Source: Ignavibacteriota bacterium (GTDB lineage Bacteria > Bacteroidota > Ignavibacteria > Kapaibacteriales > UBA2268). From it: a DNA stretch of 52,799 nucleotides. Positions within the stretch are counted from its first letter, which is position 1; each line of letters begins with the position of its first letter. The DNA is taken from positions 1-52,799 of the forward strand of contig JAGXGG010000089.1 in the NCBI GenBank assembly GCA_024636855.1, read 5' to 3'. Of the stretch, positions 10,520-34,084 are shown piece after piece. The notes below the pieces were generated by a model, which did not search any database, was not told the DNA's origin, and was given only the letters and a program-made list of their open reading frames with translations. Position numbers and translations under genes: made by a program.

Positions 10520-12754
10520 ATGGCAGATACTGCTGTGAACGAATCACAAAAAAACGAAGAAGAAGTAAATACTGTAAAAGCTACAGTTGCTTCTGCACCA
10601 AAGCAAAGTAGCAAACCTACTGTTACTGAACTTATGGAAAAAGGATTTGATAGTTTCTTGAACTTAGATGATGATGCCTATGCCCAAATGGCTATAGGCT
10701 CAGTAATTGAAATTAAAGAAGATGAACTTGTTGAAGGTAAAATTGTAAATATTACCAAAGACGAAGTTCATGTTGATATTGGATTCAAGTCAATTGGTAT
10801 AATTCCAAGAGCAGAACTAATCGGTTCTGAAAACTACGAAGTTGGTCAAAAACTTGATGTATTCATCGAGAATATCGAAGATTCAAGCGGACACATGATA
10901 TTGTCTAGAAGACGTGCAGATTTCATGAAAATCTGGGATGATATTATGGATATGTTCGAGAATAGTAAAGTTACTACAGTTAACATACTACGTAGAATTA
11001 AAGGTGGTATGGTAGTAGATTTAATGGGTATCGAAGCATTCTTGCCTGGCTCACAAATAGACGTTAGACCAGTAAGAGATTTCGATGCATGGGTTGGAAA
11101 TGATATCGAAGTAAAAGTAGTAAAAGTTAATCATCCGAACGAAAACGTAGTCGTATCTCACAAAGTGTTGCTAGAAGAGCAGTTAGCTGAGCAACGCGAC
11201 GAAATCATGTCTAACCTTGAGAAAGGATTAGTACTAGAAGGTACTGTAAAAGCTATCTCAGATTTCGGTGTATTCGTTGATTTGGGTGGAGTAGATGGTC
11301 TAGTTCACATAACTGACTTATCTTGGGGACGTGTTTCACATCCTTCGGAAGTAGTTGATTTGGACGAAACTGTTAAAGTTGTAATCTTAGATTACGATCA
11401 AGAAAGAAAGAGAATTTCACTAGGGATGAAACAGCTTACTGAGCATCCTTGGGAAAGTATCGGTGCTAAATACGAAGAAGGCACTAAAGTAACTGGTAAA
11501 GTTGTTAGCTTGACAGATTACGGAGCTTTCATCGAAATAGAAAAAGGTATCGAAGGTTTGATTCACATTAGTGAAATGAGCTGGACTCAGCACATCAAAC
11601 ATCCTTCACAAATGGTATCTATGGGTCAAGACGTGGAAGCTGTAGTTCTAAACATAGACAAAGATGATAAGAAATTAGCTTTGGGTATGAAACAATTAGA
11701 GCCAGATCCATGGGAAGATTTGATGAAGAAATACCCTGTAGATTCTAAGCACGAAGGTATTGTTAGAAATCTAACTAACTTTGGTGTATTCGTAGAATTG
11801 GAGCCAGGTGTAGATGGATTAGTTCACATAAGTGATTTATCATGGACTAAGAAAATCCGCCACCCTGGTGAATTTGTTAAGAAAAACGACAGATTAGATG
11901 TTGTAGTTCTTAGCATAGATTCAGACCAAAGAAGAATAGCATTAGGACACAAACAAGTATTAGACAACCCTTGGGATACTTTCGAGAATTCTTATGGTGT
12001 TGATTCTGAAACAGAAGCTAAAATCGAAAGAATCATTGAGAAAGGTGTTATCGTTGAATTGCCTGATGGCGTTGACGGTTTCGTGCCAGTATCTCAACTT
12101 TCATTCGCACCTGTTAAGAACATAAGTGATTACTTCAAACCAGGTGATACATTACCTCTAAGAGTAGTTGAATTTGATAAAGAATCTAAGAAAATTGTAT
12201 TGTCTGTAGTAGAAGCTCTAAGACATAAATCAGCTGAAGATATTGAAGCTTACAACAAGAAGCATCAAGTTCCTAATGCTGAGAAATATACTTTAGAGTC
12301 AGTACAACAAGCTACTCCTGAAGAAATCGAAGATTTTCTCAGAGAAACTAGTGTACTAAACAGCAATACTGTTGCTCCTAAAAAAGAAAAAGTAGAAGCT
12401 CCAAAGGAAAAAGCTACTGAAGAACCTAAAGCAGAAGAAACTACTGAAGAAGTAGCAGAAGCAGCAAAAGAGACTAAAGAAGAAAAACCTAAGAAAGCTA
12501 AAGCAACTAAAAAGAAAGAAGAAGCTCCAAAGGAAGAAGCTACTGAGGAAACTAAAGCAGAAGAAACTACTGAAGAAGTAGCAGAAGCAGCTGAAGTGAC
12601 TAAAGAAGAAAAACCTAAGAAAGCAAAAACTACTAAAAAGAAAGCTGAAGCTCCAAAGGAAGAAGCTACTGAGGAAACTAAAGCAGAAGAAACTACTGAA
12701 GATGTAGCAGAAGCTGTTGAAGAGACTAAAGAAGAAAATTCTGAAGAAGAATAA
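10520..12754 (+). CDS. rpsA: 30S ribosomal protein S1 with repeat-built C-terminal tail
   Basis: S1 binds mRNA on the small ribosomal subunit and helps initiation, especially on messages with weak Shine-Dalgarno sites. Six S1 (OB-fold) domains are visible at about 66-133, 150-214, 235-304, 320-392, 407-478 and 493-565. Domains 3-5 are the most canonical (FGVFVDLGGVDGLVHITDLS and close copies), linked by PW-containing spacers. The product is 744 residues against roughly 560-600 for six-domain S1 proteins. The excess is a tail from about 600 onward, rich in Lys, Glu, Ala and Thr, made of three copies of a 42-residue unit. The ATG follows GGAGAG. It has its own promoter and terminator. Confidence 0.95.
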   Translation: MADTAVNESQKNEEEVNTVKATVASAPKQSSKPTVTELMEKGFDSFLNLDDDAYAQMAIGSVIEIKEDELVEGKIVNITKDEVHVDIGFKSIGIIPRAELIGSENYEVGQKLDVFIENIEDSSGHMILSRRRADFMKIWDDIMDMFENSKVTTVNILRRIKGGMVVDLMGIEAFLPGSQIDVRPVRDFDAWVGNDIEVKVVKVNHPNENVVVSHKVLLEEQLAEQRDEIMSNLEKGLVLEGTVKAISDFGVFVDLGGVDGLVHITDLSWGRVSHPSEVVDLDETVKVVILDYDQERKRISLGMKQLTEHPWESIGAKYEEGTKVTGKVVSLTDYGAFIEIEKGIEGLIHISEMSWTQHIKHPSQMVSMGQDVEAVVLNIDKDDKKLALGMKQLEPDPWEDLMKKYPVDSKHEGIVRNLTNFGVFVELEPGVDGLVHISDLSWTKKIRHPGEFVKKNDRLDVVVLSIDSDQRRIALGHKQVLDNPWDTFENSYGVDSETEAKIERIIEKGVIVELPDGVDGFVPVSQLSFAPVKNISDYFKPGDTLPLRVVEFDKESKKIVLSVVEALRHKSAEDIEAYNKKHQVPNAEKYTLESVQQATPEEIEDFLRETSVLNSNTVAPKKEKVEAPKEKATEEPKAEETTEEVAEAAKETKEEKPKKAKATKKKEEAPKEEATEETKAEETTEEVAEAAEVTKEEKPKKAKTTKKKAEAPKEEATEETKAEETTEDVAEAVEETKEENSEEE
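12398..12754 (+). repeat. In-frame 126-bp tandem repeats in the rpsA tail
   Basis: Three head-to-tail units begin at 12398, 12524 and 12650, each with GCTCCAAAGGAA; the first two are exactly 126 bases and the third is cut at about 105 by the stop codon. Units differ by scattered substitutions but keep the frame and encode APKE-TEE-KAEETTEE-VAEA-TKEEKPKKAK-TKKK. The high nucleotide identity suggests recent duplication or continuing unequal exchange. Two long antisense frames over this stretch are by-products of the repeat. Confidence 0.92.
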
Positions 12755-12863: not shown

Positions 12864-14279
12864 CTATTTCTGAATAATTAATGGTGAAATATAATTATCT
12901 ATATCAGTTTTAACAGCAATAAAGTAATTGCCGGATGGTAGATTAGGAACTTCTAAACTCATTAAGCCAACTATACTGCTTTGTAAATTGCTAAACTCAT
13001 ATACTTCTGTACCTTCGATATTATAAATTACAATTCTATTTATATCTTTGATTTCTGTTGACTCGATTGTTATGTTATTTGTACTTCCCGTTATTATATT
13101 CGGATAGACATCTAAGCCAATATCTACTTTAGAAATATTAATATTGGTGGTAGAAGTAAAATCATCACTATATATAAGCCCCACATTTGTAGATATATAC
13201 ATTGTATTTCCAACAATGTTCACATTTTCAGATCTTAGATATTGAAGAAAAACACTAGGAATTTCATCAAGAAAATCTGAAAACACATCTACATATTTTA
13301 ATTCATTATTGCTATATTCATATAATCCAATATCAGAAGATATATAAATTACATTATTATCAATAATCATATTTGTAAAACCACTTGGACTAATCAAAGT
13401 CTTTCCATCTGCATAAGATGTCATATCAGGGAATTTAAACTTTTCGGATTTACCGTTTGTCTTGTCATATCTTACAAGAAAAGATTCTATATTTTTGGTA
13501 CCGGTATTAGTACGCTGCTTTAAAAGATAAATATAGTCTTTATCAACATCCATTTTTATCATAATTGCATTATCATCAAAATCTAATAGCTTATTAATAT
13601 CAATTGAGTCCTTAATTTCACCATCTTCATATCTAAGTAATTTTGAAGAAGAAATCCAAAGTGATTTGCCATCTGAAACTATATCATAGAATCTCTCTCC
13701 TGAAGGTGAGACAATAGAGTATTCTAATTTAAGATTCTCATCTTGAATTGAAATTAATTCATTATATTTTGCATCTAAAACAATTGCAATAGCCCCACCT
13801 GCATTAGTGTCGATAAATTTGACATCTTGTGCTTCTGATAAGCAATATAACTTTTTATCATAGTCAATTACTTTTTTCATTATTCTTCTGAATTTATCAT
13901 CCTGTTGATTATATTTATCGTCCAGTTCTAGAGTTTTCCAGTTGTATTTATCATCTAGTTTCAGAATTGAGTTTTTACCTGTGGCTACATAAATATAATC
14001 TTCAAAAGAAAACAATTGTGATTGAATATCTATTTTTAGTTCAATCTCTGTAGTTGATATTTTATTAAAATTATTATTATCAAGTTCAACAAGACTATAT
14101 CCTTTCCCCTTACTATCCATTAACTTCAAAATTGTCTTGTTTCCAATTTCACCTGTCTCCATAAAACGATTTCCACTTATTTCTGCATTTGGAATTAACT
14201 TCCATGTTACAGAATATAAATTAATTGCACCTAAACTAATTACTAGATTAGCAAAAATAATAGCTATTATTCTATTCAT
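12864..14279 (-). CDS. Secreted protein with type IX secretion (Por) C-terminal sorting domain
   Basis: A 471-residue exported protein of unknown function. It has an N-terminal signal peptide (MNRIIAIIFANLVISLGAIN). The middle contains repeated short strands such as DDYIYVATGKNSILKLDD, SDGKSLWISSSKLLRYEDG and DNNVIYISSDIGLYEYSN, suggesting a beta-propeller. The last ~85 residues (GLDVYPNIITG, RIVIYNIEGTEVYEF, VPNLPSGNYFIAV) match the type A sorting domain recognised by the type IX secretion system. That implies the host has a T9SS and that the protein ends up on the cell surface or outside. The ATG at 14279 follows a good GGAGG. It is convergent with rpsA. Confidence 0.82.
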   Translation of the reverse strand: MNRIIAIIFANLVISLGAINLYSVTWKLIPNAEISGNRFMETGEIGNKTILKLMDSKGKGYSLVELDNNNFNKISTTEIELKIDIQSQLFSFEDYIYVATGKNSILKLDDKYNWKTLELDDKYNQQDDKFRRIMKKVIDYDKKLYCLSEAQDVKFIDTNAGGAIAIVLDAKYNELISIQDENLKLEYSIVSPSGERFYDIVSDGKSLWISSSKLLRYEDGEIKDSIDINKLLDFDDNAIMIKMDVDKDYIYLLKQRTNTGTKNIESFLVRYDKTNGKSEKFKFPDMTSYADGKTLISPSGFTNMIIDNNVIYISSDIGLYEYSNNELKYVDVFSDFLDEIPSVFLQYLRSENVNIVGNTMYISTNVGLIYSDDFTSTTNINISKVDIGLDVYPNIITGSTNNITIESTEIKDINRIVIYNIEGTEVYEFSNLQSSIVGLMSLEVPNLPSGNYFIAVKTDIDNYISPLIIQK

Positions 14280-14514: not shown

Positions 14515-15201
14515 TTAATAAGCAGCAGGAGCATTTGTATCATCATCATCAAAGTAGATATTGATATCACGAACATCATCATAGTTTTTTAATTTGCGGA
14601 TTAGGAGTTCTTTTTCCACACCTTTTTTGAGTTTCATATTGTAGTAAACTTCTATAAAGTCTTTTTCATCTAAGGCTCTTACATTTACTACTTTTAGAGA
14701 ATTTGTATTTGATTTTAATAGTTTTTTCACTTCGTCATTAATTTCATTAGGCTTATAAGTGATGTGTATCAGATAATTAACATCGGATGTCTGGAAGACA
14801 TTAGTATTAGAAAGAATAAGTATGACTACACAAATGAATATAGTTCCAATTACTGCAACTAAATATAATCCTACTCCCGATGCCATTCCTATACCAAGAG
14901 AAAAGAAGATAAATACAATATCTTGTACATCACGCACAGCGGTTCTAAATCTGATAATTGACATAGCCCCAACTAAACCAAACGCAGTAGCTAAATTATT
15001 CCCTATCACTAGTAATACAAGAGATGTGATAATAGTCAGTAATATTAAAGAACTAACAAAAGTTCTAGAATAGTTAGGCCCTTTATAAGTCACACGATAT
15101 ACAATAGAAATAAGAACACCACAGATGAAAGATATACTCAATGAGTAGATTATCTCAAGCGCTGTAACTGGGAAAAGCTCTATGTATTGAAATTCATTCA
15201 T
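14515..15201 (-). CDS. DUF4956 membrane protein, partner of the VTC-domain protein
   Basis: A 228-residue inner-membrane protein with about four transmembrane segments in the first half, containing the family's conserved GNNLATAFGLVGAMSIIRFR (charged RFRTAVRD just after it), then a soluble C-terminal domain of about 85 residues. The chosen ATG at 15201 is one base past the VTC stop, with GGAG about ten bases upstream. A longer frame to 15231 would overlap the VTC gene by 29 bases and start inside its coding sequence, so it is less likely. DUF4956 genes commonly sit beside VTC-domain genes, which suggests a shared role in polyphosphate-related membrane work, but the biochemical role is not established. 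It is last in the HlyD-VTC-DUF4956 operon. Confidence 0.85.
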   Translation of the reverse strand: MNEFQYIELFPVTALEIIYSLSISFICGVLISIVYRVTYKGPNYSRTFVSSLILLTIITSLVLLVIGNNLATAFGLVGAMSIIRFRTAVRDVQDIVFIFFSLGIGMASGVGLYLVAVIGTIFICVVILILSNTNVFQTSDVNYLIHITYKPNEINDEVKKLLKSNTNSLKVVNVRALDEKDFIEVYYNMKLKKGVEKELLIRKLKNYDDVRDINIYFDDDDTNAPAAY

Positions 15202-15202
15202 A

Positions 15203-15931
15203 TTATATTTGCTCCGCACGAAAATAAGCAAATCGTGATTGTTTTACTATTTCTTTATGACTATCTATACATATTATGTACTTAGAAGCCGATTCTCTAT
15301 TTAATGAAAGTGATTCTGACATATTCCTTACCCAACTAGGTAAGAAATTATCAAACTTTATTTCTAAAATAAAATTATCCCTCATAGCTATCTTAACATC
15401 ATCATCTACAAATAGTTGATCAATTTTAGGATAGGCAACACTTCTTAGATTTTTATCAAAAGTAATTCTAAGATTGTTGTTTGTTGGAAATATTTCAGTA
15501 TATGGTTCCCTATCATATATTACATTGACAATTGGTCGAAGATTATAAGACATGACTTGGTAAAAAAATTTGTTCAAATCATCATCATCAGTAGTAATAG
15601 TTCTTTCATTAATCATTCTAAGTGATTCAAAATATTTGGTTGAATATCTATTTTTCATACCTGGTTCTTCGAACTTTCTCTTCACTTCGAAAAATACTGT
15701 CGAATCAGGGTTGTAATCATATCCTCTTAGTCGTACTTTTTTTCGATGTTTTAATCCAGATATTTTCTCATAATAATGTTTTAAATCTATAGAGTCGAAA
15801 TATATACTTCTTACAGTGTAATGCTTTCTATTTGGGTCAACATGATCATCTATTCTTAGCTTCGTTGATATAATATTACGAAGAAGAGGTATTTTGCTTC
15901 TATGAACATAGAATTTATACTCAAATCTCAA
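15203..15931 (-). CDS. VTC-domain (polyphosphate polymerase-like) protein
   Basis: A 242-residue tunnel-fold (CYTH-like) protein of the VTC domain family, whose yeast founder Vtc4 makes polyphosphate from ATP. Basic and acidic residues expected to line the tunnel are visible: EYKFYV (4-9), RSIYFDS (41-47), HRKKVRLRGY (62-71), FFEVKRKF (80-87) and a late FILEIKFDNFLPSWV with its conserved Glu. No membrane segment or signal peptide is present, so it is cytoplasmic, presumably docked to the neighbouring DUF4956 protein. It starts two bases after the HlyD-like gene and ends one base before DUF4956. Whether it makes polyphosphate or uses another triphosphate is unknown. Confidence 0.83.
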   Translation of the reverse strand: MRFEYKFYVHRSKIPLLRNIISTKLRIDDHVDPNRKHYTVRSIYFDSIDLKHYYEKISGLKHRKKVRLRGYDYNPDSTVFFEVKRKFEEPGMKNRYSTKYFESLRMINERTITTDDDDLNKFFYQVMSYNLRPIVNVIYDREPYTEIFPTNNNLRITFDKNLRSVAYPKIDQLFVDDDVKIAMRDNFILEIKFDNFLPSWVRNMSESLSLNRESASKYIICIDSHKEIVKQSRFAYFRAEQI

Positions 15932-15933
15932 AT

Positions 15934-16968
15934 TTAGAATCCCAATTTTCTTTTAGCATATGTATAAAGTGGAACTTTTTCTGAGTAGATTGACGCTCTA
16001 CAGATCATTCCTGGTCTGATGAATTTGTCTGGATTTGTTACTCTAGCAGTTACTAAAAAGAATTGATCACGTCCTCTGATACGAATTTCATCCTCGATAT
16101 TAGTTATAACAGCGTTATATATATTATCAGTTTTGTCAATTGAAAGTTCAACTTTGTCATCTAGATCAACATAGCCGATTTCATATACTTTTACAGGTAT
16201 CTTAACTATAAAATCAGAAGGGTCTTTGATTTTTATCAAATCTATACTGTCTTGATAATAATTTATAATACCTCTAAATGGAGCTTTTATTATATACTTG
16301 TCTTTCTTTTGTTCTAGGTTGGCTATCCTTTCTTGAAGAGTTTTTATCTGGGATTTTATTACATCAAGAATCTCTGATTTTTCACCAGTAGAAACTGTTT
16401 CTAAACTCTTTTGAGCAAGTTGCAAATTGATTTTGGCTAAGTTATTGGCATTTTTGAATCGATCATATTCTAGTTGTGGAATCAAATCTTCTTTGACCAT
16501 TTTCTCTGCACGTTCGAGTTGAATAGTAGTAAACTCTACATTACTTTTTGCAATTCTTAACTTGTCATCAAACTCTTTAATAATAGAAGCTTTTTGACCT
16601 GTAACTTTATCTTGGTATTCCGCTTTTGCAACTTCTAATTGGGATTGAAGAGTTATGATTTGCTCATTTATAACATCTGAATTAATCACTGCAATTGTAT
16701 CATCTTCATTAATTCTTTTATTGTGACTATAGAAATTAATCTTAGCTACATCTCCCCTGTCGAATATATAATCTGTCTTAGAAGTAGAGAAGTTACGGTC
16801 ATTATCTATAATCATTGAACTCAATTCACCATTATTATCTCGTGTCAATCGCCATTCTTTTGCAGAATATACAAGAGAATTTGCCTCAATCAAGTAATTA
16901 ACTTCAAAAGGGGCAAGGATAAATAGCGGTGCTATAAATAATAATATGACTGAATATTTTCTTATCAT
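15934..16968 (-). CDS. HlyD-like membrane fusion (periplasmic adaptor) protein
   Basis: A 344-residue protein anchored by one N-terminal hydrophobic segment (about 5-23). A lipoyl/biotinyl-like half-motif, a long coiled coil rich in Gln, Lys and Glu (about 85-220), the returning half-motif YIIKAPFRGIINY, and beta-barrel-like domains to the C-terminus then follow. Such proteins normally bridge an inner-membrane pump to an outer-membrane channel, yet no ABC, MFS or RND pump or TolC gene is adjacent. Instead it is tightly linked to VTC and DUF4956 genes. An isolated TAATTTTG (16974-16981, minus strand) ends six bases before the ATG, hinting at a very short or absent leader. Confidence 0.8.
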   Translation of the reverse strand: MIRKYSVILLFIAPLFILAPFEVNYLIEANSLVYSAKEWRLTRDNNGELSSMIIDNDRNFSTSKTDYIFDRGDVAKINFYSHNKRINEDDTIAVINSDVINEQIITLQSQLEVAKAEYQDKVTGQKASIIKEFDDKLRIAKSNVEFTTIQLERAEKMVKEDLIPQLEYDRFKNANNLAKINLQLAQKSLETVSTGEKSEILDVIKSQIKTLQERIANLEQKKDKYIIKAPFRGIINYYQDSIDLIKIKDPSDFIVKIPVKVYEIGYVDLDDKVELSIDKTDNIYNAVITNIEDEIRIRGRDQFFLVTARVTNPDKFIRPGMICRASIYSEKVPLYTYAKRKLGF

Positions 16969-21195: not shown

Positions 21196-22080
21196 CTAAA
21201 TTATTTTATCAATTATTATTAAAATTAGAATCAAAAGTACATATATATTAATAAACATAAATGTCTTTCTAATTCGTTTTCTGTCTAATTCTCGTTCAAG
21301 AAGATACCTAGCACTATAAACTAATGCTAACTCACTTATAAAAAATATTATTTGAGTACTGCTATTATCAATTACTCCATAAAATGGAATTATAAGAGCC
21401 AGTGACGCAAGTGAAACAATCCAAACGAAAGTAACCCTTCCTATTTGTGCTTTGTTCAACCATCTATTAAGCATTACAAATCCAGCCTTATCATATTGAT
21501 CATCAAACAACAATAATAACAACCAAAAATGTGGCATTTGCCATAAAAATAAGAATAGAGCTAAAGCCCAAATAACAGGAGCACCTATATATCCACCAGC
21601 TGCAACCCAACCAATAAGGGGAGGTAGTCCTCCAACAATGGCACCAGGCAAAACTGCTAGATTAGAAACTCTTTTCATAGGAGTATATACTAAGTTATAA
21701 ATTAGTAAAGTAACTAATCCAACTAGCATAGGAGCTATTTCTCCAGTCCCTAAAAGCAATAACATACCTAATAAAGATAATATACTAGATATAGCAAAAC
21801 CGATACTAGAGTTTATTCTACCTGAAGCAAGGGGTCTATTCCTAGTTCTATCCATCATTGGGTCAATTTTTCTTTCTTGCCAATGATTATAAGAAGCAGA
21901 ACCCATCGACATCAACATAGTACCAAAGAAAACTAGTACTAGATTAACATCAAATTTAACTTCATAAAGTAGATAACCCACAATAGCTGTAATAGCAACT
22001 GAAATCGATATTCTATATTTACCAAGGTCAAATAAATCTTTTATGATATTTGTATCTTCTATTTTCACAGAACTATTCAC
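21196..22080 (-). CDS. ctaB: Heme o synthase (protoheme IX farnesyltransferase)
   Basis: An inner-membrane UbiA-superfamily prenyltransferase that adds a farnesyl chain to heme b, making the heme o precursor of heme a. The 294-residue protein has about eight to nine hydrophobic segments and the metal-diphosphate motif SYNHWQERKIDPMMDRTRNR (63-82), in which Asn65, Asp73 and Asp77 fit NxxxDxxxD-type spacing. A second conserved loop, YTPMKR, is present near residue 130. It lies between subunit II and the membrane cytochrome gene, as expected for an oxidase assembly enzyme. Heme A synthase (CtaA), needed if the oxidase uses heme a, is not in the window. Confidence 0.94.
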   Translation of the reverse strand: MNSSVKIEDTNIIKDLFDLGKYRISISVAITAIVGYLLYEVKFDVNLVLVFFGTMLMSMGSASYNHWQERKIDPMMDRTRNRPLASGRINSSIGFAISSILSLLGMLLLLGTGEIAPMLVGLVTLLIYNLVYTPMKRVSNLAVLPGAIVGGLPPLIGWVAAGGYIGAPVIWALALFLFLWQMPHFWLLLLLFDDQYDKAGFVMLNRWLNKAQIGRVTFVWIVSLASLALIIPFYGVIDNSSTQIIFFISELALVYSARYLLERELDRKRIRKTFMFINIYVLLILILIIIDKII

Positions 22081-22110
22081 TAAATCCTCTCATATTAGAA
22101 AGGACTCAAA

Positions 22111-22800
22111 TTAGTTTTCTTTATTCTCTGACATCTCATTCGAATCAGATTCAGCAGATTTTTCTTCAGTTGTATTTACTTCTTCTTTATCTTTACCACC
22201 TTGCGACTCAACCCAAGCATAGTATTCATCTTGTTCCATAACAATAAATTTTTTGTACATATTCCAGTGGTTTAGACCACAGTATTCAGCACATGCTATG
22301 TCATATTCTCCAGTTTTCTCAGGAGTTATAACTACAAAACCGTTGCTACCTGGAACAGCATCTTCTTTTATTCTGAAAGCAGGAATATAGAAACTATGTA
22401 ATACATCTAAAGAAGTAATATTGAATTTAAGGGTTTTCCCAACGGGCACAAAAAGTGTATCCGTCACTGTACCATTTTCGTATTTAAAATCCCAATTCCA
22501 CATTTTAGCAGTTACAAAGTATTCCTCATCAAATTTTTCAGTGTTTCTTAAATCAGAGAAATCTTTATAACCGTAATAGAACATAGACATTACTAGTAAA
22601 GTAGGAATTATAATCCAAGTAACTTCTATAGCAACATTACCATGATATTGAGTAGGTATCGGGTTCTTACTAGCCCGATATTTAATAACGAAATAAATCA
22701 TTGCTACAGTTATCAGCAGCAGCATAAGTACCGATATAACAGTAATATAGAGCATTGCACTATCAACTGTACTTGAGTATCTAGAAGTTTGTTCAAACAT
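22111..22800 (-). CDS. coxB: Cytochrome c oxidase subunit II (CuA, no heme c domain)
   Basis: Subunit II takes electrons from cytochrome c through its binuclear CuA centre. The 229-residue protein has two membrane helices (about 16-38 and 57-77) and a periplasmic cupredoxin domain with all CuA ligands: His135 in DVLHSFYIP, Cys170, Cys174, His178 and Met181 in CAEYCGLNHWNM. Unlike classical caa3 subunit II there is no fused cytochrome c. The chain ends in an acidic Glu/Asn/Ser-rich tail. Cytochrome c modules are instead on separate genes at 26291 and 19760. Its position after subunits I, III and IV departs from the common II-I-III order. Confidence 0.95.
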   Translation of the reverse strand: MFEQTSRYSSTVDSAMLYITVISVLMLLLITVAMIYFVIKYRASKNPIPTQYHGNVAIEVTWIIIPTLLVMSMFYYGYKDFSDLRNTEKFDEEYFVTAKMWNWDFKYENGTVTDTLFVPVGKTLKFNITSLDVLHSFYIPAFRIKEDAVPGSNGFVVITPEKTGEYDIACAEYCGLNHWNMYKKFIVMEQDEYYAWVESQGGKDKEEVNTTEEKSAESDSNEMSENKEN

Positions 22801-22803
22801 TTT

Positions 22804-23121
22804 CTATCCAGTATATCTATTGAATAAATCAAATGAATACATTATAAATATAACTGTGAATACTAACCCGCAGGCCAATAATATACTTTTCATAAGTATG
22901 TCGTCATATTTTATATGCATAAATATATTAATTACAAGCATCGCCTTAATAGATGCTATAAGCATTGCTACAAAAAACGTATAATTCCCTAAATCAACAC
23001 TTGCAACGGTAACCGTCAAAGCAGTTAATGCAACAAGTACTAGCCAAATCATGACGTTTTTTCCGTAACTTGGTAAGTGTTCGTGTGTATCGACACTTGT
23101 ATGTTCGTTATGTCCGCTCAT
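22804..23121 (-). CDS. Cytochrome c oxidase subunit IV (prokaryotic, CtaF-like)
   Basis: A 105-residue membrane protein with three hydrophobic segments and a His-rich N-terminus (MSGHNEHTSVDTHEHLP). It matches the small prokaryotic subunit IV family in size and in the VLVALTALTVTVAS and INIFMHIKYDD patches. The subunit packs against I and III and is thought to stabilise the complex. It sits ten bases after subunit III and two before subunit II. Confidence 0.85.
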   Translation of the reverse strand: MSGHNEHTSVDTHEHLPSYGKNVMIWLVLVALTALTVTVASVDLGNYTFFVAMLIASIKAMLVINIFMHIKYDDILMKSILLACGLVFTVIFIMYSFDLFNRYTG

Positions 23122-23131
23122 TTTTAACCTT

Positions 23132-23812
23132 TTAATGTAATAGATAGAACAATGGAAATAAGAAAATCCAAATTAAATCAACTAAGTGCCAATATAATCC
23201 CGCATTTTCTAAAACGATATATTTATCTGAGTTTATAGTCCCCGTTCTAATAAAAATAAAACAGAATACCATAACTACCATCCCAACTATAACGTGGAAT
23301 GTATGTAACCCTGTCATTAAATAATACAGTCCAAAGAATACAACTTCTCCAGCAGGTCTAGTTTCTCTTAGTTCCATTGATCCAGGAAAAATACCATGGT
23401 GGATTTTAGCAGACCACTCAAAGTATTTATTAACACAGAATGTAGCACCAAATCCAAAAGTAACTATAAGATAAAAGAGAGAAGTTTTAATACTTTTCCT
23501 ACGTAGAGCAACAATTGAAAGTACCATTGTCAAAGAACTTGTCAAAAGAACAAGTGTATTAACAGCTCCCATAACAATATTAAGCTCCATTGCCGCATTA
23601 TGATAGTCATGAGGATAAGCAATTCTATATCCATAATACAAGACAAATAACCCACCAAATAGTAACACTTCTGTAAAGAGAAATAACCACATTCCAAATT
23701 TGGAACCGTAATCATCTCTATGAAAATGTACGTATAATTGATTGTTGTCACCATAACCGTGCCCGGCATGATTATTTGAATGCCCGTGAGCATCAACAGA
23801 TGTAGTACTCAA
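23132..23812 (-). CDS. coxC: Cytochrome c oxidase subunit III
   Basis: A 226-residue inner-membrane subunit with about five helices, consistent with the shorter bacterial form. Family patches include [20 protein letters not shown] (residues 38-57), [16 protein letters not shown], and the C-terminal [18 protein letters not shown]. Subunit III stabilises the proton-pumping core of subunit I. The N-terminus is His-rich ([13 protein letters not shown]). It starts one base after the subunit I stop, so translation is coupled. Confidence 0.95.
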
Positions 23813-23813
23813 T

Positions 23814-25496
23814 TTAGCTATTCTCCTGATTTATAATATCATTTTCTTTGTTTTCTATATATTTTACGTCTTCAAAATTTCTTTCATCATGACCGTGATA
23901 ATCATATGGATCATGACTAGGCACTGGTGTTTCTATAAAATTCAACAATGGTGGTGGAGATGGCATAGTCCATTCCAAAGTCTTAGCACCCCACGGATTT
24001 GAACCAACTGGTTTACCTTTAAAGATTGCTATCAATAAATTAGTAAACATTAGCAATATCGAAGCTATTAATATCCAAGAACCTACAGTCGAAATCACAT
24101 GATAAATTTGAAACTCAGGTAAGTAATCAAAATATCTTCTAGGCATTCCCATATATCCCATAATAAACATTGGGAAATATAGAACATTTGCTCCAATAAA
24201 ATACAATACTACGCCAATTTTTGCAACTTTTTCGTTGTGCATTTTTCCAAACATCTTAGGAAACCAAAAATGCATTGCTGCTATAAACATAGATAGAATA
24301 CCACCAATAATCACATAGTGAAAGTGTGCTATTACAAAATAAGTATCGTGTAAGTGAATATCAGTCGAAATTGAACCTAAGTGTAATCCGGTTAATCCAC
24401 CAATAGAGAACAAGAAAATAGCACTTAAAGCCATTAACATAGGTGATGATAGAACTATTGTTCCTCTCCATAATGTAGCAACCCAGTTAAATACTTTAAC
24501 TCCCGTAGGGATAGCAACAAAGAATGTTAAGAAAGAGAAAACAGTTCTTGCAGTATCACTCATACCGCTTGTAAACATATGGTGTGCCCAAACTACATAG
24601 CCAATAAAAGCAATTGCTATAGTCGAATATGCCATTACTTTATACCCGAATACAGACTTTCTAGAGAAAGTAGCAATAATGTCAGATATAACTCCAAATG
24701 CAGGTATCGCCATTATATAAACTGCTGGATGCGAATATATCCAGAATAAATGCTGATAGAGTACAGGATCACCACCAATTGTGGGATCAAATATACCAAA
24801 TCCAAATGATCTTTCTAATAAGACAAGTACGATTGTAATACCAATTATAGGTGTTGCAACTACTTGAATCCAAGCAGTTGAATATAAAGCCCAAGTAAAT
24901 AATGGCATCTCAAACATTTTCATTCCTTTAACTCTCATCCTATGGCACGTAGTAACAAAGTTGAGACCAGTCAAAATCGAGGAGAATCCAAGAATAAAAG
25001 CTGCCATTAGCGGTAATGTGACATCTGTACCTGTCCTTAAGCTATAAGGTACATAAAAAGTCCATCCAGTATCTATATGTGTTTGGAATATCAATGAATA
25101 AAGTGCTAAAAATGCACCTGTCAAATATAAATGATAAGAAAAGAGATTCAATCTAGGAAAAGCAACATCTTCAGCTCCTATTTGTAAAGGAAGGAAGAAA
25201 TTACCAAATACAGCAGGAATACCTGGTATAATGAATAGGAATACCATTATCATACCATGCAGAGTAAAGAATGAATTATATGTCTGAGCATCAACAATTG
25301 TTGGCCCAGGAGTTAACATTTCTAATCTCATCAAAAAGGCAAAAGTTAATCCTACCAAGAAAAAAGATAGAATTGAAATCAAATACATAATTCCGATTCG
25401 CTTATGGTCTGTTGTTAATAACCATGCAAGCAAGCCTTTATGTTTTGTTTTAACTTGATAAAAGTTCGTATAATTTGTGTTAGTTGTATTGTTCAT
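23814..25496 (-). CDS. coxA: Cytochrome c oxidase subunit I (A2-type heme-copper oxidase)
   Basis: The catalytic, proton-pumping subunit, 560 residues with about twelve helices. Ligands are visible: His80 (low-spin heme) in TLHGMIMVF; the CuB site with His256-Tyr260 in YSHPAVY and the His305-His306 pair in [10 protein letters not shown]; and His390 and His392 in VIAHFHYV. The helix VI motif is YSHPAVY rather than GHPEVY: the D-channel glutamate is replaced and the Tyr-Ser pair is present. This is the hallmark of A2 oxidases such as that of Rhodothermus marinus. The start overlaps the SCO gene's end by four bases. It belongs to the long ACIII-oxidase operon. Confidence 0.96.
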
Positions 25497-26281
25497 TTTA
25501 CAACCGTCTCCTTTTTATTTTTTTCTTTTCTGGAAGAAAATATTAAATATCCAATAAATATAAGTAACGTTAAAGTTACAGTTCCCCCTACTATAGGGAG
25601 TAAATTAAGAACATAAGATTTTCCTTTCGGATCATATTTAAAGCACAGTTCCAAAAAATTATTAATGGTTGGTTGTGCTAAACCTTTACTTGCTTCAATA
25701 ATTGACATTTTAAAATTAAATGGCAAAAATTCGGTTCCATTGTGATATCTAGTTATTTTGCCATCTGGTGATAATACAACTAAGATTGCACTATGAAGAT
25801 AATCTTTTTCACCTTCCTTAGAAAAATTGAAGCCAAGTGCTTTTGTCAATTTTCTAATTTGTACACTATCGCCAGTCATAAACTTCCAGCCATTCGGATC
25901 AATATTTCTGTTTAATCCAGCCAAATAGTTCTTTTTCCACTTTGAAGATATTTTAGAATCTTCATTATGGTCAAAACTAATTGAAAAGGCATTGTAATCT
26001 TGACCCGGAATCAAATCTGTTGATTCGATTACCTCTGCAAAACCTTCTAATAAGGGACTGCAAATACCAGGACAATTGAAGTAAACCATAGATATTACTG
26101 CTGGTTTACCATCTAACTGATCGAAGAGATTTACTTCTTCCCCGTCAGAGTTTGTGAAAACTACATTCTTAGGAATGTATTCTCCAAGTTTTTCTTCAAC
26201 ACCTACTTTTTCGTTTGCTTCTTTTTGTGCAAATAATAGTGTAGGTAATAGTAAACAAAGAACTAATCTTTTAATAAACAT
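25493..26281 (-). CDS. SCO1/SenC-family copper chaperone
   Basis: An exported thioredoxin-fold protein that helps load copper into the CuA site of subunit II. The 262 residues include a signal peptide (MFIKRLVLCLLLPTLLFA), the copper-binding CPGIC (Cys70, Cys74), and His163 in DYLHSAILVVL, the three expected copper ligands. Unlike many SCO proteins it also has a C-terminal membrane helix (about 228-248) followed by a basic tail, so it is anchored at that end. It lies between the membrane cytochrome c and subunit I, and overlaps the latter by four bases. Confidence 0.93.
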   Translation of the reverse strand: MFIKRLVLCLLLPTLLFAQKEANEKVGVEEKLGEYIPKNVVFTNSDGEEVNLFDQLDGKPAVISMVYFNCPGICSPLLEGFAEVIESTDLIPGQDYNAFSISFDHNEDSKISSKWKKNYLAGLNRNIDPNGWKFMTGDSVQIRKLTKALGFNFSKEGEKDYLHSAILVVLSPDGKITRYHNGTEFLPFNFKMSIIEASKGLAQPTINNFLELCFKYDPKGKSYVLNLLPIVGGTVTLTLLIFIGYLIFSSRKEKNKKETVVK

Positions 26282-26290
26282 TTTAATACG

Positions 26291-27214
26291 TTAGTTAACT
26301 GAATATAAACCAACTAATTTTGAGTGTAATTGTGACCACTCTTCGTCTGTTAAGTTTACCACTTTAGTGTTAAAACCATTTTGTGGTAAATCACTTAATA
26401 TTAACTTTTTAAATTTGCTCATATCAGTTTTCCAATCATTAGAATTGTTTAGAGAGTATAACGCTCTATCAACGTCTATAGTGTTATTTGTTACTATTGC
26501 AACATCACTAGATTGACTGAAATTAGCTTTTACATTTTTAAAGTTTGTTGTCTTATCTTTTGCAACCAATTTTGTCGCTTTTTCTAAAGAAATTTGATTT
26601 TTTGTAGTTCTACCATCAGCTAGAGAATATGTTAGATCTAAGTTTGACAATTCATCTTCACTAACTTCTGGAAAATCGGCGAAAGTTCTTACATAATGAA
26701 TAAGACCAAATCTTTCCTTAACAGTTAGTTGATTATATGAATTCATACCATTAGCAACTATACCTTCTTCTAGTGTCTTGTACATATCAGCAAAAGAGCG
26801 TCCATTTGTCCAGCCATCTTCTGCATGAAAGTTACGAGGTGGAGGATTAAGCCCACCACCAGCGGGACCATCACCTTTACCATTCTCACCATGACAAGAA
26901 ACACAGTTCGCTTGAAATAGTTCTTTACCTGTAGCTATCAATTCTGGTGAAGGATTATTACCCAATTCTGAAACATCTATTCCTTCTTGTAATTGACCTT
27001 TTTGTTCTACTACATCATTTTGTCTTTCTACATTTATAGAGTTAATAAACTTAGTATCATTATCAGAAATATAATCCTGATGTTGAACATAATACTTTCC
27101 TGCTATAATTATAGATACAAGTACAACTAAGTAAACTAATCCCATCCATCTAGACGGAGTAGAGAATATTTGCTTAAAGTCAACTTCTGTTTGATATTTT
27201 TTATTATCTGACAT
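26291..27214 (-). CDS. Membrane-anchored mono-heme cytochrome c
   Basis: A 307-residue protein with a single N-terminal membrane helix (about 24-40) and a periplasmic cytochrome c domain (about 90-180). The heme site is CVSCH (104-108) and the probable axial Met is in ANGMNSYNQ (about 157). The remaining ~125 residues have no cysteine and no motif I recognise. The heme domain (ELFQANCVSCHGENGKGDG) resembles the ActE cytochrome. Lying between actF and the oxidase genes, it is a good candidate for the carrier that hands electrons from Alternative Complex III to CuA. An accessory ACIII subunit is the alternative. Confidence 0.82.
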   Translation of the reverse strand: MSDNKKYQTEVDFKQIFSTPSRWMGLVYLVVLVSIIIAGKYYVQHQDYISDNDTKFINSINVERQNDVVEQKGQLQEGIDVSELGNNPSPELIATGKELFQANCVSCHGENGKGDGPAGGGLNPPPRNFHAEDGWTNGRSFADMYKTLEEGIVANGMNSYNQLTVKERFGLIHYVRTFADFPEVSEDELSNLDLTYSLADGRTTKNQISLEKATKLVAKDKTTNFKNVKANFSQSSDVAIVTNNTIDVDRALYSLNNSNDWKTDMSKFKKLILSDLPQNGFNTKVVNLTDEEWSQLHSKLVGLYSVN

Positions 27215-27234
27215 TTCTTACTCTATAAAATTAA

Positions 27235-28437
27235 TTATATTCTAAAATCTAAAGCTCTATTCAACTTAGGATCGCCAATCGGGATATGATTTTTCTTATT
27301 AGCAGCCAAATAGTAAAATACTAGTATAATACCCGCTGAAAGAGAAATAAATCCTAATTCTATCCAACCAAATACTGGCCCTTCAGTTCCACTCATTCTA
27401 TTATAAGTAGGCATAACTAACCAATACATATCATATATATGTGCACCTATTATCCAAAATGCAGCTAGTTTTAGTCTACTTGGATTCATCTTAGAATTAC
27501 GGTTCAAGAGTAAACCGAAAGGGATTATAAATTTAATAAATATTAAGCCTATTGAAAGATACTCCCAGCCATTTTCCATTCTTGGTAAGAACCAAAATGT
27601 TTCTTCAGGAATGTTAGCATACCATATCAACATATATTGTGAGAATGCCATGTACATCCAAAAAGCTGTGAATGCAAACATCAATCCACCCATGCTATAG
27701 TAATGATTACCATTAATCTCTTTTAATAGATTACCATTACTTTTTAATTTCAATGTTAGCAACGTAAGTACAGCCATAGCCGTAGCAAATGTACCAGCAA
27801 AATAGTATACACCAAATATTGTAGAGAACCAATGTGGTTCCAAACTCATAGCATAATCTATAGCAACCATAGTAATACTTATAGCAAATAATGGCATGAA
27901 TACAGCTGAAATCAATGCATTTATTTTCGTTGTTTTTTGGCTTTGAGTAGTATCTTGTCTAGTTGAGTTTCTTAAGTAAGTAAATAGAAAGATAGACATA
28001 ACTACAAAAATACCTATAGAACGAGCATAAAAGAATTCTGTATTCAAATATGGTGATTTCTGATATAGAATAGGGTCATTCACTACAACGTTTAAATGAG
28101 TCCATTCATATATGTCATGCATATTGAATAATATAGGTAAAGCAAGCAATGGCGTAGCTAAAAATATAAATCCTTGATGCTCTGCAATTCTTCTAAAAGG
28201 TACGCTCCAAACTGCACCAGCAATATGTTCTAGAGCAACTAAAAATATAGCACCCAAACCAACACTGACAATAAGCAGTAATGATATTATATTGTTGAAA
28301 GAAGCTCTCATTGGATCAACTTGATACGCTATAAATGCGGATACTATTCCAATTATTAAAAGAGGTAAACCAAATTTTAGAAAACCTTTTGGTAAATCTT
28401 TCTTAATGTAGTTTATTTTTGTTTCGTGGTTACTCAT
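27235..28437 (-). CDS. actF: Alternative Complex III subunit ActF
   Basis: A 400-residue inner-membrane protein with about ten helices. It shows ActF/NrfD-like patches such as ALEHIAGAVWSVPFRRIAEH (residues 69-88), the periplasmic SLEPHWFSTIFGVYYFAG and SQYMLIWYANIPEETFW. In the known complex ActC and ActF form the two-sided membrane core, with ActC holding the quinol site; ActF is thought to contribute to proton handling. Its start overlaps the actD-actE stop by four bases, and the next gene, a cytochrome c, begins 20 bases later. Confidence 0.92.
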   Translation of the reverse strand: MSNHETKINYIKKDLPKGFLKFGLPLLIIGIVSAFIAYQVDPMRASFNNIISLLLIVSVGLGAIFLVALEHIAGAVWSVPFRRIAEHQGFIFLATPLLALPILFNMHDIYEWTHLNVVVNDPILYQKSPYLNTEFFYARSIGIFVVMSIFLFTYLRNSTRQDTTQSQKTTKINALISAVFMPLFAISITMVAIDYAMSLEPHWFSTIFGVYYFAGTFATAMAVLTLLTLKLKSNGNLLKEINGNHYYSMGGLMFAFTAFWMYMAFSQYMLIWYANIPEETFWFLPRMENGWEYLSIGLIFIKFIIPFGLLLNRNSKMNPSRLKLAAFWIIGAHIYDMYWLVMPTYNRMSGTEGPVFGWIELGFISLSAGIILVFYYLAANKKNHIPIGDPKLNRALDFRI

Positions 28438-29567
28438 TGCATATCCTCCTCTTTTGCGTCTAACGCTCTTTGCAATTTTCTAACATAATTCACTATAGCC
28501 CATCTTTCTTTTCTTGTTACAGTTTTCTTATAACCAGGCATTACGTTTTGTCCTTCAGTGATTACGTGATAAATCCTTCCATCAGTCCAAGACAACAATT
28601 TGTCCGAATGAAGTGTAGGGCCATTAGGGAATTGACCGTTAAGTCTAGAATCACCTTTAGCCAAATCTCCGTGACAAGGACTACAGTATGTTAGATATTT
28701 TTTCTTTCCTAATGCTATATTCTCTTCATCGGCTACGAATGGGTTTACCAAATTATCGGAAGCACCGTCTGGGTCTTCACTATAAAGGTAAGGCATAAAT
28801 CCTCTTGCTACCGTACCTTCAACAGGCTCTCTTGAACTAATTCCATTTTTAAAGAAATCTGAATGATCTTGAGCAGTAACTTTATGTTGTAATAACATCC
28901 AATCAAATGGAGGTAAATACAATGCTTTATTCATATGTAAATAAACGCTTATAGAAGTAAAGCCTGCAATCAGAAACATTCCAATTACAAATTTAGAATC
29001 TAAAATTTTATGTTTTGTATTTACTTCTTCTTCATCGAAATAAATCTCATCTATTTGATAAGCACCAATAGATGCTAAAAATGCTTTCACTTTATCTAAA
29101 TCAAATTTAGGATCAACTGCTTCTATATTAACACCAAATTTATCAGACGAAACAGCTTTCATATAACTACTATCGTGTAGAGGATGTGCATTATTCGGAA
29201 ATTTGAAATAGAATATTAACATAACAGCTACTGTTAGTACTGCACCAGTCAATATTGTGATTTCAAACATAATTGGTACGAATGCTGGTAAAGGAAATAA
29301 TGGTTTACCACCAATTACTTGAGGATAATCAATATTGTATACCCAATACATAAAGAACAGCATCAGTGACATACAAGTCAAACCAATAGTTATAGTATAG
29401 TAACCCATTTTAGAGGATTTCAACTTCATAGCGCCATCCATTCCGTGTATCGGATAAGGCGTATTTACATCATATTTTTCGTATCCTGCATCTGCTACTT
29501 TCGAAGCTGCATGCATGATATCATCTGGCGTTTTAAACAACGCTGCTACTGAATATAATTTACTCAT
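28434..29567 (-). CDS. actD: ActD-ActE fusion: DUF3341 membrane subunit with cytochrome c domain
   Basis: A 377-residue protein joining two usually separate Alternative Complex III subunits. Residues 1-185 are ActD (DUF3341): [20 protein letters not shown] at the start, then two membrane helices (about 58-78 and 97-121). Another hydrophobic segment (about 193-210) leads into an ActE-like mono-heme cytochrome c (about 275-375) with CSPCH (295-299) and likely axial Met343 in NVMPGYK. The start was set at the ATG at 29567: GGAGGTG lies six bases before it, whereas the in-frame ATG at 29582 would put that Shine-Dalgarno inside the protein. It overlaps actC by eight bases and actF by four. Confidence 0.92.
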
Positions 29568-30942
29568 GGTCTTCACCTCCATGATGAGATGGTTGTGCCC
29601 CTTCAGATACTGCTTTTATTTCAGCAATAGCTATAGAAGGTAAGAATCTTGTGAAAAGTAATGTCAAAGTAAAGAACAATCCAAAACTTCCTAATAAAAT
29701 GGCAAAGTCAGTAATTGTAGGTCTATAATAAGCCCAACTTGAAGGTAAGAAATCTCTTGATAGTGATGTAACAACAATCACAAATCTCTCAAACCACATA
29801 CCAACGTTTACAAATATTGCAATTATAAACATAGGTACTATACTTGTTCTGATTTTCTTTATCCAGAATAGTTGAGGAATAAATACGTTACAACTAAACA
29901 TAGTCCAATAAGCCCAGGCATATGGTCCAAAAGCTCTATTCACAAAAGTGAAATATTCAGGTTGACTTCCAGAATACCAGGCTATGAAAAACTCCATAGA
30001 GTAAGCATAACCAACCATTGTACCTGTCAGTAATATAATCTTATTCATTGTTTCAAGAGTTTTCAAGGGAATCAAATCATCCATATCAAACACTTTTCTA
30101 ATAACAATTAATGAATTCTGTACCATAGCAAATCCAGAGAAAATCGCTCCCGCAACGAAATAAGGCGGGAAGATAGTTGTATGCCATCCAGGTAGGATAG
30201 ATACAGCGAAGTCAAAGGATACAATTGTGTGTACAGAAAGTACTAAAGGAGTTGCTAAACCAGCAAGTATCAAATAAGTCATTTCATAATGTTGCCAATG
30301 TCTATTTGAGAATCTCCATCCTAAACTAAAGATTGAATATATAACTTTTTTAATTTTACCAGTAGCTCTATCTCTAAGAAGCGCGAAATCGGGGATAAGT
30401 CCTACATACCAGAATACTAACGATACTGTAAAGTATGTAGAAACGGCGAACACATCCCATAACAATGGCGAATTGAAGTTCACCCAAACTGCATGTTGGT
30501 TCGGATATGGTAGCAGATAAACAGCTGCAACCCAAGGTCGCCCAGTATGTATAATTGGGAATATCAAAGCCGTAATAACGGCAAATATCGTCATGGCTTC
30601 TGCAAATCGAGCAATACCGTTTCTCCATCTTTGTCTTAGAAGGAATAAAATTGCTGAAATCAAAGTTCCTGCGTGACCGATACCAACCCAGAATACGAAA
30701 TTAACAATTGGAAACGCCCAACCTACTGGGTTATTATTACCCCAAAGACCAGTACCATAATAAAATGATAATGCAATCCCAATTGTTCCTATTAATAGCA
30801 AAGTGGATGTAAATCCTATCGCTATGAAAAACTTTTTGTTAGGTATTCTGTCTAAAGGTGCAACGATCAGATCGTCAATCTCTTTCAGAGACCTTGTACC
30901 TTTGACATTTACTTCATTTTTTGTATAATCAATGGTGCTCAC
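29560..30942 (-). CDS. actC: Alternative Complex III quinol-binding membrane subunit ActC (NrfD-like)
   Basis: A 460-residue polytopic inner-membrane protein with about ten helices, related to NrfD/PsrC. In the known complex it binds menaquinol near the ActB iron-sulfur clusters. Characteristic patches are [40 protein letters not shown], and [20 protein letters not shown] with its helix histidine. A His/Glu-rich C-terminus (SHHGGEDHE) follows. The start overlaps actB by 14 bases and the end overlaps actD-actE by eight, so the subunits are probably made in step. Confidence 0.94.
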
Positions 30943-33900: not shown

Positions 33901-34084
33901 TTGATTTTGAACCAATGTCAAAATTCTCAGCCCCTTCAGCAAATTCATTTGCTTTTACTTTTAATTGATTATCAGTGCTAGTATTGTTATATTCATCTAA
34001 GCTTCTCCAGTGTGAGGGCTTTGATTCTGACTTAACAACTGGTAAATCAATTTGGTTTTTATTTTTATCCACTGAGTTATTCAT
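30929..34084 (-). CDS. actB: Alternative Complex III subunit ActB (molybdopterin-oxidoreductase-like plus iron-sulfur domain)
   Basis: A 1051-residue periplasm-facing subunit. It begins with the ACIII-specific extension (HWRSLDEY, 25-32), then a TAT signal ([20 protein letters not shown], 64-83), where Cys83 could be a lipobox cysteine. A large molybdopterin-superfamily domain follows, in ActB thought to carry no cofactor. A ferredoxin-like C-terminal domain from about residue 815 has four cysteine groups: [38 protein letters not shown], and CTFC paired with CQDACP. In known ActB these hold three [4Fe-4S] clusters and one [3Fe-4S] that carry electrons from quinol to the heme subunits. It starts five bases after the small TAT-like gene. 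Confidence 0.96.

Follow-up and report, generated by a model that had tools for sequence, protein, structure and literature searches.

A widespread operon of an HlyD-type adaptor, a VTC protein, and a DUF4956 membrane protein, and its co-occurrence with CotH kinase-like proteins

What is the use of an operon that joins a pump-type periplasmic adaptor to a polyphosphate-polymerase-like protein and a membrane protein, but holds no pump? The question is raised by a 52,799-nucleotide stretch of an Ignavibacteriota bacterium genome (assembly GCA_024636855.1, contig JAGXGG010000089.1), which we call the window. We found that this trio, encoded on the minus strand throughout in the order adaptor, VTC, and DUF4956, is a widespread and apparently undescribed unit, its CotH-VTC-DUF4956 core being already known in Gram-positive bacteria. 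Its strongest partner is CotH, a predicted extracellular kinase or kinase-like protein, which was missed by the first-pass annotation of the window made from the letters alone. We read the trio as a unit that makes a phosphate polymer and exports it across the envelope, with the adaptor working through a TolC-type channel and CotH acting at the surface, and we put this reading at a little short of an even chance. The genes are as follows.

15934-16968, minus strand: HlyD/MacA-type periplasmic adaptor (P0001), 344 amino acids, ATG start; Pfam HlyD_3, E 2.1e-6
15203-15931, minus strand: VTC protein (polyphosphate-polymerase-like, triphosphate tunnel; P0002), 242 amino acids, TTG start; Pfam VTC, E 6.3e-39
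14515-15201, minus strand: DUF4956 membrane protein (P0003), 228 amino acids, ATG start; Pfam DUF4956, E 1.3e-19
12864-14279, minus strand: downstream secreted protein with a type IX secretion system (T9SS) tail (P0004), 471 amino acids; T9SS tail, E 6.5e-6

Two bases (15932-15933) separate the adaptor and VTC genes, and one base (15202) separates VTC from DUF4956. The start of the latter was taken as the ATG at 15201; its longest open reading frame (ORF) begins further upstream, at a TTG at 15231. These three identities and this spacing had been named by the first-pass annotation, as had the missing pump, and all of them are borne out by the Pfam matches and the coordinates. No transporter gene flanks the window trio, and its operon holds no cognate ATP-binding cassette (ABC), major facilitator superfamily (MFS), or resistance-nodulation-division (RND) pump. 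At related loci, a Pfam scan of 67 same-strand flanking genes gave one MFS and one cation-efflux protein, with no RND or ABC pump family among the 25 commonest of the 57 families.

We used a VTC profile from the genus to survey 395 genomes of the phylum. It matched 42 genomes at 46 places besides the window, and all 46 were fetched with about 9 kb on each side where the contig was long enough. The adaptor lies in the same operon at 42 of the 46 (one of them, L095, is split across two ORFs). Gene order varied: 28 places read adaptor-VTC-DUF4956, 13 read VTC-DUF4956-adaptor, and 1 reads DUF4956-adaptor-TolC-VTC. Thirty VTC sequences were also used to scan named genomes; keeping the best 80 of 499 relatives and removing six duplicates of earlier loci left 74 loci. 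Here the adaptor was present at 68, directly upstream at 66 and found at 2 more by a six-frame hidden Markov model (HMM) search; since the query alignment was built from trio-type VTCs, the adaptor counts describe that VTC subfamily and not VTCs in general. The six-frame search recovered genes lying under antisense ORFs at L093, L102, L103, L104, and L126. Contig ends cut two of the remaining named loci (L158 and L176), and at L178 we read an adaptor-like C-terminal fragment at the contig edge. Record titles of adaptor-bearing loci include Ignavibacteriae, Saprospiraceae, Bacteroidales, Chlorobiota, KSB1, Calditrichia, Latescibacterota, Zixibacteria, and Krumholzibacteriota. Thus, the triplet recurs in relatives, which the first-pass annotation had left to a genome survey, and the pairing of VTC with DUF4956 that it had pointed to is right.

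The three proteins also vary together. Of 115 loci (the window plus 114), 87 gave intact trios for a distance test and an adaptor tree, the dropped loci having a gene missing, short, or uncalled. Pairwise protein distances of the trio members correlated with Spearman coefficients of 0.71, 0.80, and 0.74, against maxima of 0.18, 0.28, and 0.20 in 500 permutations; shared species history contributes to these values.

Within the genus, the trio occurs in three of four genomes, that is, the window genome and two of the three others. In the window it stands between genes for a tRNA pseudouridine synthase and an 8-oxoguanine glycosylase on one side and genes for P0004 and an S1-domain protein on the other. 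Genome G003 is collinear with the window on both sides of this site (84% and 89% nucleotide identity) and has none of the block that the pseudouridine synthase and S1 genes enclose. Because G003 is the closest to the window genome by TruA (90% identity, compared to 87% for G002 and 85% for G001), loss of the trio in G003 is the simpler reading, as judged from this single marker. In G002, the trio sits at the corresponding site directly beside the S1 gene, and P0004 is missing there. The trio is therefore a unit that does not need the T9SS gene. P0004 was considered as a fourth member and rejected on the same ground; it is adjacent yet probably outside the system.

We asked what each protein might do, beginning with VTC, whose gene is the only one of its kind in the source assembly. 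The VTC domain (PF09359) covers residues 2-224 of the protein and positions 2-233 of the 235-position profile, and against yeast Vtc4 structures the best E value was 3.1e-7. Residues K6, R67, R69, K84, and R141 align with K200, R264, R266, K281, and R361 of Vtc4 (PDB 3g3q; numbering counted from the alignment), and all five are invariant in 30 of 30 aligned sequences. K200, K281, and R361 of Vtc4, the matches of K6, K84, and R141, are likewise basic tunnel residues. The possibility that the tunnel residues are non-functional, which the first-pass annotation had raised, thus finds no footing in these conserved equivalents. In the excerpted text of PMC9911596, a yeast complex carrying R264A/R266A/E426N in Vtc4 is catalytically impaired, and a published model couples cytosolic synthesis to membrane transit. 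The yeast complex (Vtc1/Vtc3/Vtc4), as that excerpt presents it, has the catalytic domain family and the tunnel residues in common with our VTC. Unlike it, the 242-residue window protein has no SPX or membrane domain; its membrane partner is a protein of its own, MgtC-like, and an adaptor is encoded alongside as well. No polyphosphate-synthesis assay of a bacterial VTC appeared among the literature matches listed, and PMC10657179, in the part available, deals with the eukaryotic VTC.

DUF4956 (PF16316) was matched at 71 bits against a cut-off of 30.6. MgtC (PF02308) was matched at 24 bits (5.4e-5), which is below its curated cut-off of 31.4 and is read as resemblance only. The AlphaFold2 model has five predicted transmembrane helices followed by a C-terminal ACT/ferredoxin-like domain. 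In a comparison with PDB structures this domain resembles ACT domains and the C-terminal domain of MgtC, and since matches to it dominate that comparison, they bear on this domain and not on the fold of the membrane part. A sequence search of solved structures for DUF4956 returned nothing of weight, with one match at E 1.2. R84, F85, R86, T87, and D94 are invariant in 62 of 62 sequences; the AFGLVGA and RFRT stretches are invariant too.

The adaptor had no relative in a sequence search of solved structures. Its AlphaFold2 model (predicted local distance difference test score, pLDDT, 86.7) shows an N-terminal transmembrane-like helix, beta parts, a long alpha hairpin (98-159/165-223), a further beta domain, and a C-terminal helix. 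The best Foldseek matches of the model were MacA (5.6e-15) and EmrA (1.7e-14), both in TolC assemblies. In the model, G-x-K motifs (K126 and K197) interrupt both hairpin arms at a similar distance from the tip. Among adaptors of the adaptor-first gene order, K126 is kept in 82 of 82, K197 in 76 of 82 with Arg in 4 more, and W39 in 79 of 82. Twelve generic adaptors differ from this lineage, with W39 and K126 in none and K197 in one. The strict TolC-docking tip motif is R-x3-L-x6-S. Across 82 adaptors, the tip has R in 74, L or M in 79, S in 44, and one of S, A, P, or T in all 82, giving the pattern R-x3-[LM]-x6-[SAPT]; the window adaptor, with R153, M157, and P164, departs from the strict motif at two of three positions. 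The predicted fold and the hairpin are shared with the MacA and EmrA adaptors of TolC tripartite pumps, and the tip in its looser pattern resembles theirs, the difference being that no ABC, MFS, or RND pump stands beside the trio adaptor. In the adaptor tree, adaptor-first adaptors (82 tips) form one group with a node support of 0.36, and the five VTC-first adaptors are placed elsewhere with generic adaptors in between; the two types may have been recruited separately.

Two operons place TolC with these genes. At L111, a TolC gene stands between the adaptor and VTC. On a Hymenobacter volaticus plasmid (NZ_CP095062.1, L229 5920-9160), we found an adaptor-DUF4956-TolC operon; this adaptor is annotated as hypothetical, matches no Pfam family at E 0.01, and was identified by tblastn (7e-30) and the trio HMM (1.7e-97). 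At L107, two more TolC-like genes in the 19-kb stretch lie beside another, opposite-strand adaptor gene or far off, outside the VTC operon. The source genome holds several TolC-family genes (13 matching stretches). Four monoderm plasmid stretches, from Pseudobutyrivibrio, Planococcus, and Paenibacillus (Bacillota) and Nonomuraea (Actinomycetota), carry VTC-DUF4956, with CotH adjoining in three. No adaptor was found in these four by HMM, two of them being unannotated and the PLSDB gene tables incomplete. Such an absence would be expected of an adaptor whose role lies at the outer membrane.

We examined the association with CotH in 193 distinct genomes, comprising 100 relatives and 99 genomes across the phylum with overlaps merged. 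CotH was found in all 47 genomes with VTC, compared to 34 of 146 without. The same pattern held among the relatives (31/31 versus 13/69), across the phylum (18/18 versus 21/81), at genus level (19/19 versus 7/27), inside the family (26/26 versus 8/28), and in those relatives whose genomes reach 3 Mb (22/22 versus 7/24; P = 2e-7, with P values optimistic in that they assume independent genomes). In 14 control genomes, three had a VTC match and three had CotH, and two shared both (Corynebacterium glutamicum and Methanosarcina acetivorans). Because the third, Bacteroides ihuae, has a VTC match and no CotH match, exceptions to the rule exist beyond the sample. By simple gene calls that predate the six-frame search, CotH lies within three genes of VTC at 9 of 38 and 16 of 74 loci, and CotH is the commonest Pfam family among the 67 flanking genes (13).

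The source genome has three CotH matches, all on contigs other than that of the trio. One is a 755-residue protein with LTD, CotH, and T9SS domains, whose gene has a tandem paralogue in G000 and G002. Orthologues at 74% matches occur in G002 and in part in G001 (a 447-residue portion, where a contig ends or breaks). Outside such orthologues the best match was 31%, and G003, which lacks the trio, reached 29% at best. With G003 the nearest genome by TruA, the trio and the T9SS-tailed CotH gene look to have been lost together there.

Three side observations concern the neighborhood of these genes. At L236 (8926-13039), DUF4956, a CotH-like gene, and VTC stand in a row; the genome concerned, G118, has two adaptor-type VTC loci as well. 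At L133 (5696-10647), possibly a regulatory variant, neither an adaptor nor DUF4956 was detected, and we read the genes that follow CotH and VTC as those of a histidine kinase and a response regulator. SdiA-regulated/phytase-like secreted proteins lie near the trio at L083, L090, L194, and other loci, as the gene after DUF4956, and fall within three genes at 4 of 38 and 4 of 74 loci by the same simple calls; they are possible phosphate-handling partners.

How might these parts work together? In the export reading, VTC would use nucleotide triphosphate at the cytoplasmic face to make polyphosphate or a phosphoryl product close to it. The inner-membrane partner would be DUF4956, serving as a conduit or an anchor. 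The HlyD-type adaptor would span the periplasm, its hairpin tip docking on an outer-membrane channel of the TolC type whose gene lies elsewhere. From there the product would arrive at the surface, where T9SS-secreted CotH kinase-like proteins may use, bind, or modify it. The first-pass annotation had offered an envelope route for a polyanion and an envelope sensor side by side. The route appears the better supported of the two, given the two TolC operons and the adaptor-less monoderm stretches, with the nature of the product and its transport being what we infer.

A bolder version is that VTC, DUF4956, adaptor, and TolC ship high-energy phosphate chains through both membranes as the donor for T9SS-secreted CotH kinases outside, where ATP is scarce, with the hairpin lysines of adaptor-first adaptors lining the polyanion path. 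We regard this as a long shot, and the part given to the G-x-K lysines is speculation, with the VTC-first adaptors speaking against a general rule. To our knowledge, how extracellular kinase-like proteins such as CotH come by a phosphoryl donor is an open question, and our searches on CotH and its donor found nothing of use. The literature listings that we searched likewise gave no bacterial route for polyphosphate across the envelope. As the trio is a conserved operon that links an enzyme resembling polyphosphate polymerases to what may be a conduit through the envelope, and all 47 VTC-bearing genomes of the 193 sampled have CotH, both questions become testable in cultivable Bacteroidota. If the export reading is true, DUF4956 would gain a function, and so would a class of adaptors that lack a pump.

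The window's own family and order tell a different story about the third gene. VTC is present in 31 of the 100 relatives. At 27 loci outside the genus, fetched with about 1.5 kb on each side, a DUF2490 gene is near VTC at 25 and DUF4956 at 26, while the adaptor is at none of the 27 within that span, and six larger stretches agree. These operons have the VTC-DUF4956 core in common with the trio but carry DUF2490 in third place instead of the adaptor, and their VTC is distant from that of the window. Family VTCs outside the genus match the window VTC weakly; VTCs at trio loci of other groups reach 27-41% identity over the alignment. Judging from these comparisons, the simplest reading is that the genus gained the adaptor version horizontally. 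DUF2490, which in the L112-L117 and L004-L030 operons we read as a beta-rich envelope protein with a signal peptide, is possibly the equivalent of the adaptor. Bacteroides thetaiotaomicron has a DUF4956/DUF2490 gene pair that is listed in an iron table (-7.6, second figure 0.175), with no function given in the part of that source available (PMC10434189).

A number of results weigh against the export reading. The adaptor is not universal, since in the window's family and order the third place mostly goes to DUF2490. Four of the 46 phylum places (L236, L237, L238, and L239), which are the four weakest profile matches, lack a detected adaptor: L237 has VTC-DUF4956 without it, L239 has a DUF2490-like gene with VTC-DUF4956, and at L238 even VTC itself is unconfirmed. 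Three of the 74 named loci (L133, L184, and L193, from Anaerolineae) likewise lack one. TolC was found in a VTC operon at 1 of 120 loci (46 plus 74, with HMMs built from few seeds) besides the one plasmid operon, and that plasmid operon lacks a neighboring VTC gene. VTC-first adaptors do not retain the hairpin lysines: position 126 is Arg in five of five, and neither K197 nor W39 is found in any of the five. The model of DUF4956 reaches a moderate pLDDT of 76.7, and DUF4956 resembles MgtC, whose known members are regulators. CotH is common in genomes without VTC, and the contrast between trio and CotH within the genus is one among four genomes. The source genome also encodes a PPK1-type kinase, and the idea that VTC is its sole polyphosphate maker was rejected for that reason.

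The regulatory features just named are the starting point for one alternative, in which the trio is an envelope sensor or regulator: VTC would bind a phosphate ligand as a switch, DUF4956 would act like MgtC, and the adaptor-like protein would sense the periplasm, with no export. The weak MgtC matches fit this, as do the ACT-like domain, of a kind that binds small ligands, the missing pump, the availability of PPK1 for polyphosphate synthesis, and the two-component genes after VTC at L133. The invariant tunnel residues do not, and neither does an adaptor that retains a TolC-docking-like tip and shares its operon with TolC in two cases. We consider a sensor unlikely.

A second alternative keeps the surface but changes the cargo. 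VTC and CotH would modify an exported polysaccharide or protein matrix, and what the adaptor and DUF4956 export would be the glycan or an activated precursor, not polyphosphate. In its favor, Gram-positive CotH-VTC-DUF4956 sits with Pel genes in the excerpt of PMC7112168, or with glycosyltransferases; nucleotidyltransferase genes make up 8 of the 67 flanking genes, and Cthe_2159 carbohydrate-binding proteins occur beside the trio. With no glycosyltransferase among the 25 commonest flank families of the adaptor form, or beside the window trio, we hold surface polymer phosphorylation to be distinctly unlikely.

An adaptor, TolC, and an integral membrane protein do look like a pump, and VTC shares its fold class with triphosphatases. 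DUF4956 could then be the transporter of a new small-molecule efflux or uptake pump driven by hydrolysis of nucleoside triphosphate or triphosphate by VTC, but a protein with just five predicted transmembrane helices is an awkward transporter and the link to CotH would be left unexplained, making this very improbable. Finally, a chance neighborhood of unrelated genes, which only the scattered occurrence of VTC across the family would suggest, was rejected and has next to no probability given the recurrence of the adaptor in both surveys, the rearranged orders, and the block-wise absence in G003.

The closest described relatives of the trio are Gram-positive. CotH, a polyphosphate polymerase, and DUF4956 are accessory genes in Pel clusters in the excerpt of PMC7112168, and VTC genes accompany CotH in Clostridium perfringens NELoc-2 in the available parts of PMC2879425 and PMC11677781. 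So far as these excerpts go, both have VTC beside a small membrane protein and CotH, a core in common with the trio. Compared to both, the window operon adds a periplasmic adaptor, has CotH in the same genome and not in or beside the operon, has no Pel genes alongside, and belongs to a group whose relatives are diderm. The first-pass annotation knew of no described system of this composition. For the adaptor form this stands, as neither it, its spread, nor the VTC-CotH dependence was found in the literature searched, which leaves out most subscription papers and preprints; for the CotH-VTC-DUF4956 core it does not, the excerpt of PMC7112168 having described it.

Some features of the window lie outside this system. 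A repeat search within the trio gave short repeats only. Beyond it, a 126-bp tandem repeat (2.8 copies, 92% matches) at 12389-12738 falls where the gene of the S1-domain protein codes for the C-terminal tail, and encodes a Lys/Glu-rich repeat; the long antisense ORFs over it are probably a by-product. At 21196-34084, genes for COX1, a UbiA-family protein, NrfD, ActD with cytochrome c, and an Fe-S/molybdopterin-binding protein form a respiratory cluster that looks like an alternative complex III and oxidase locus.

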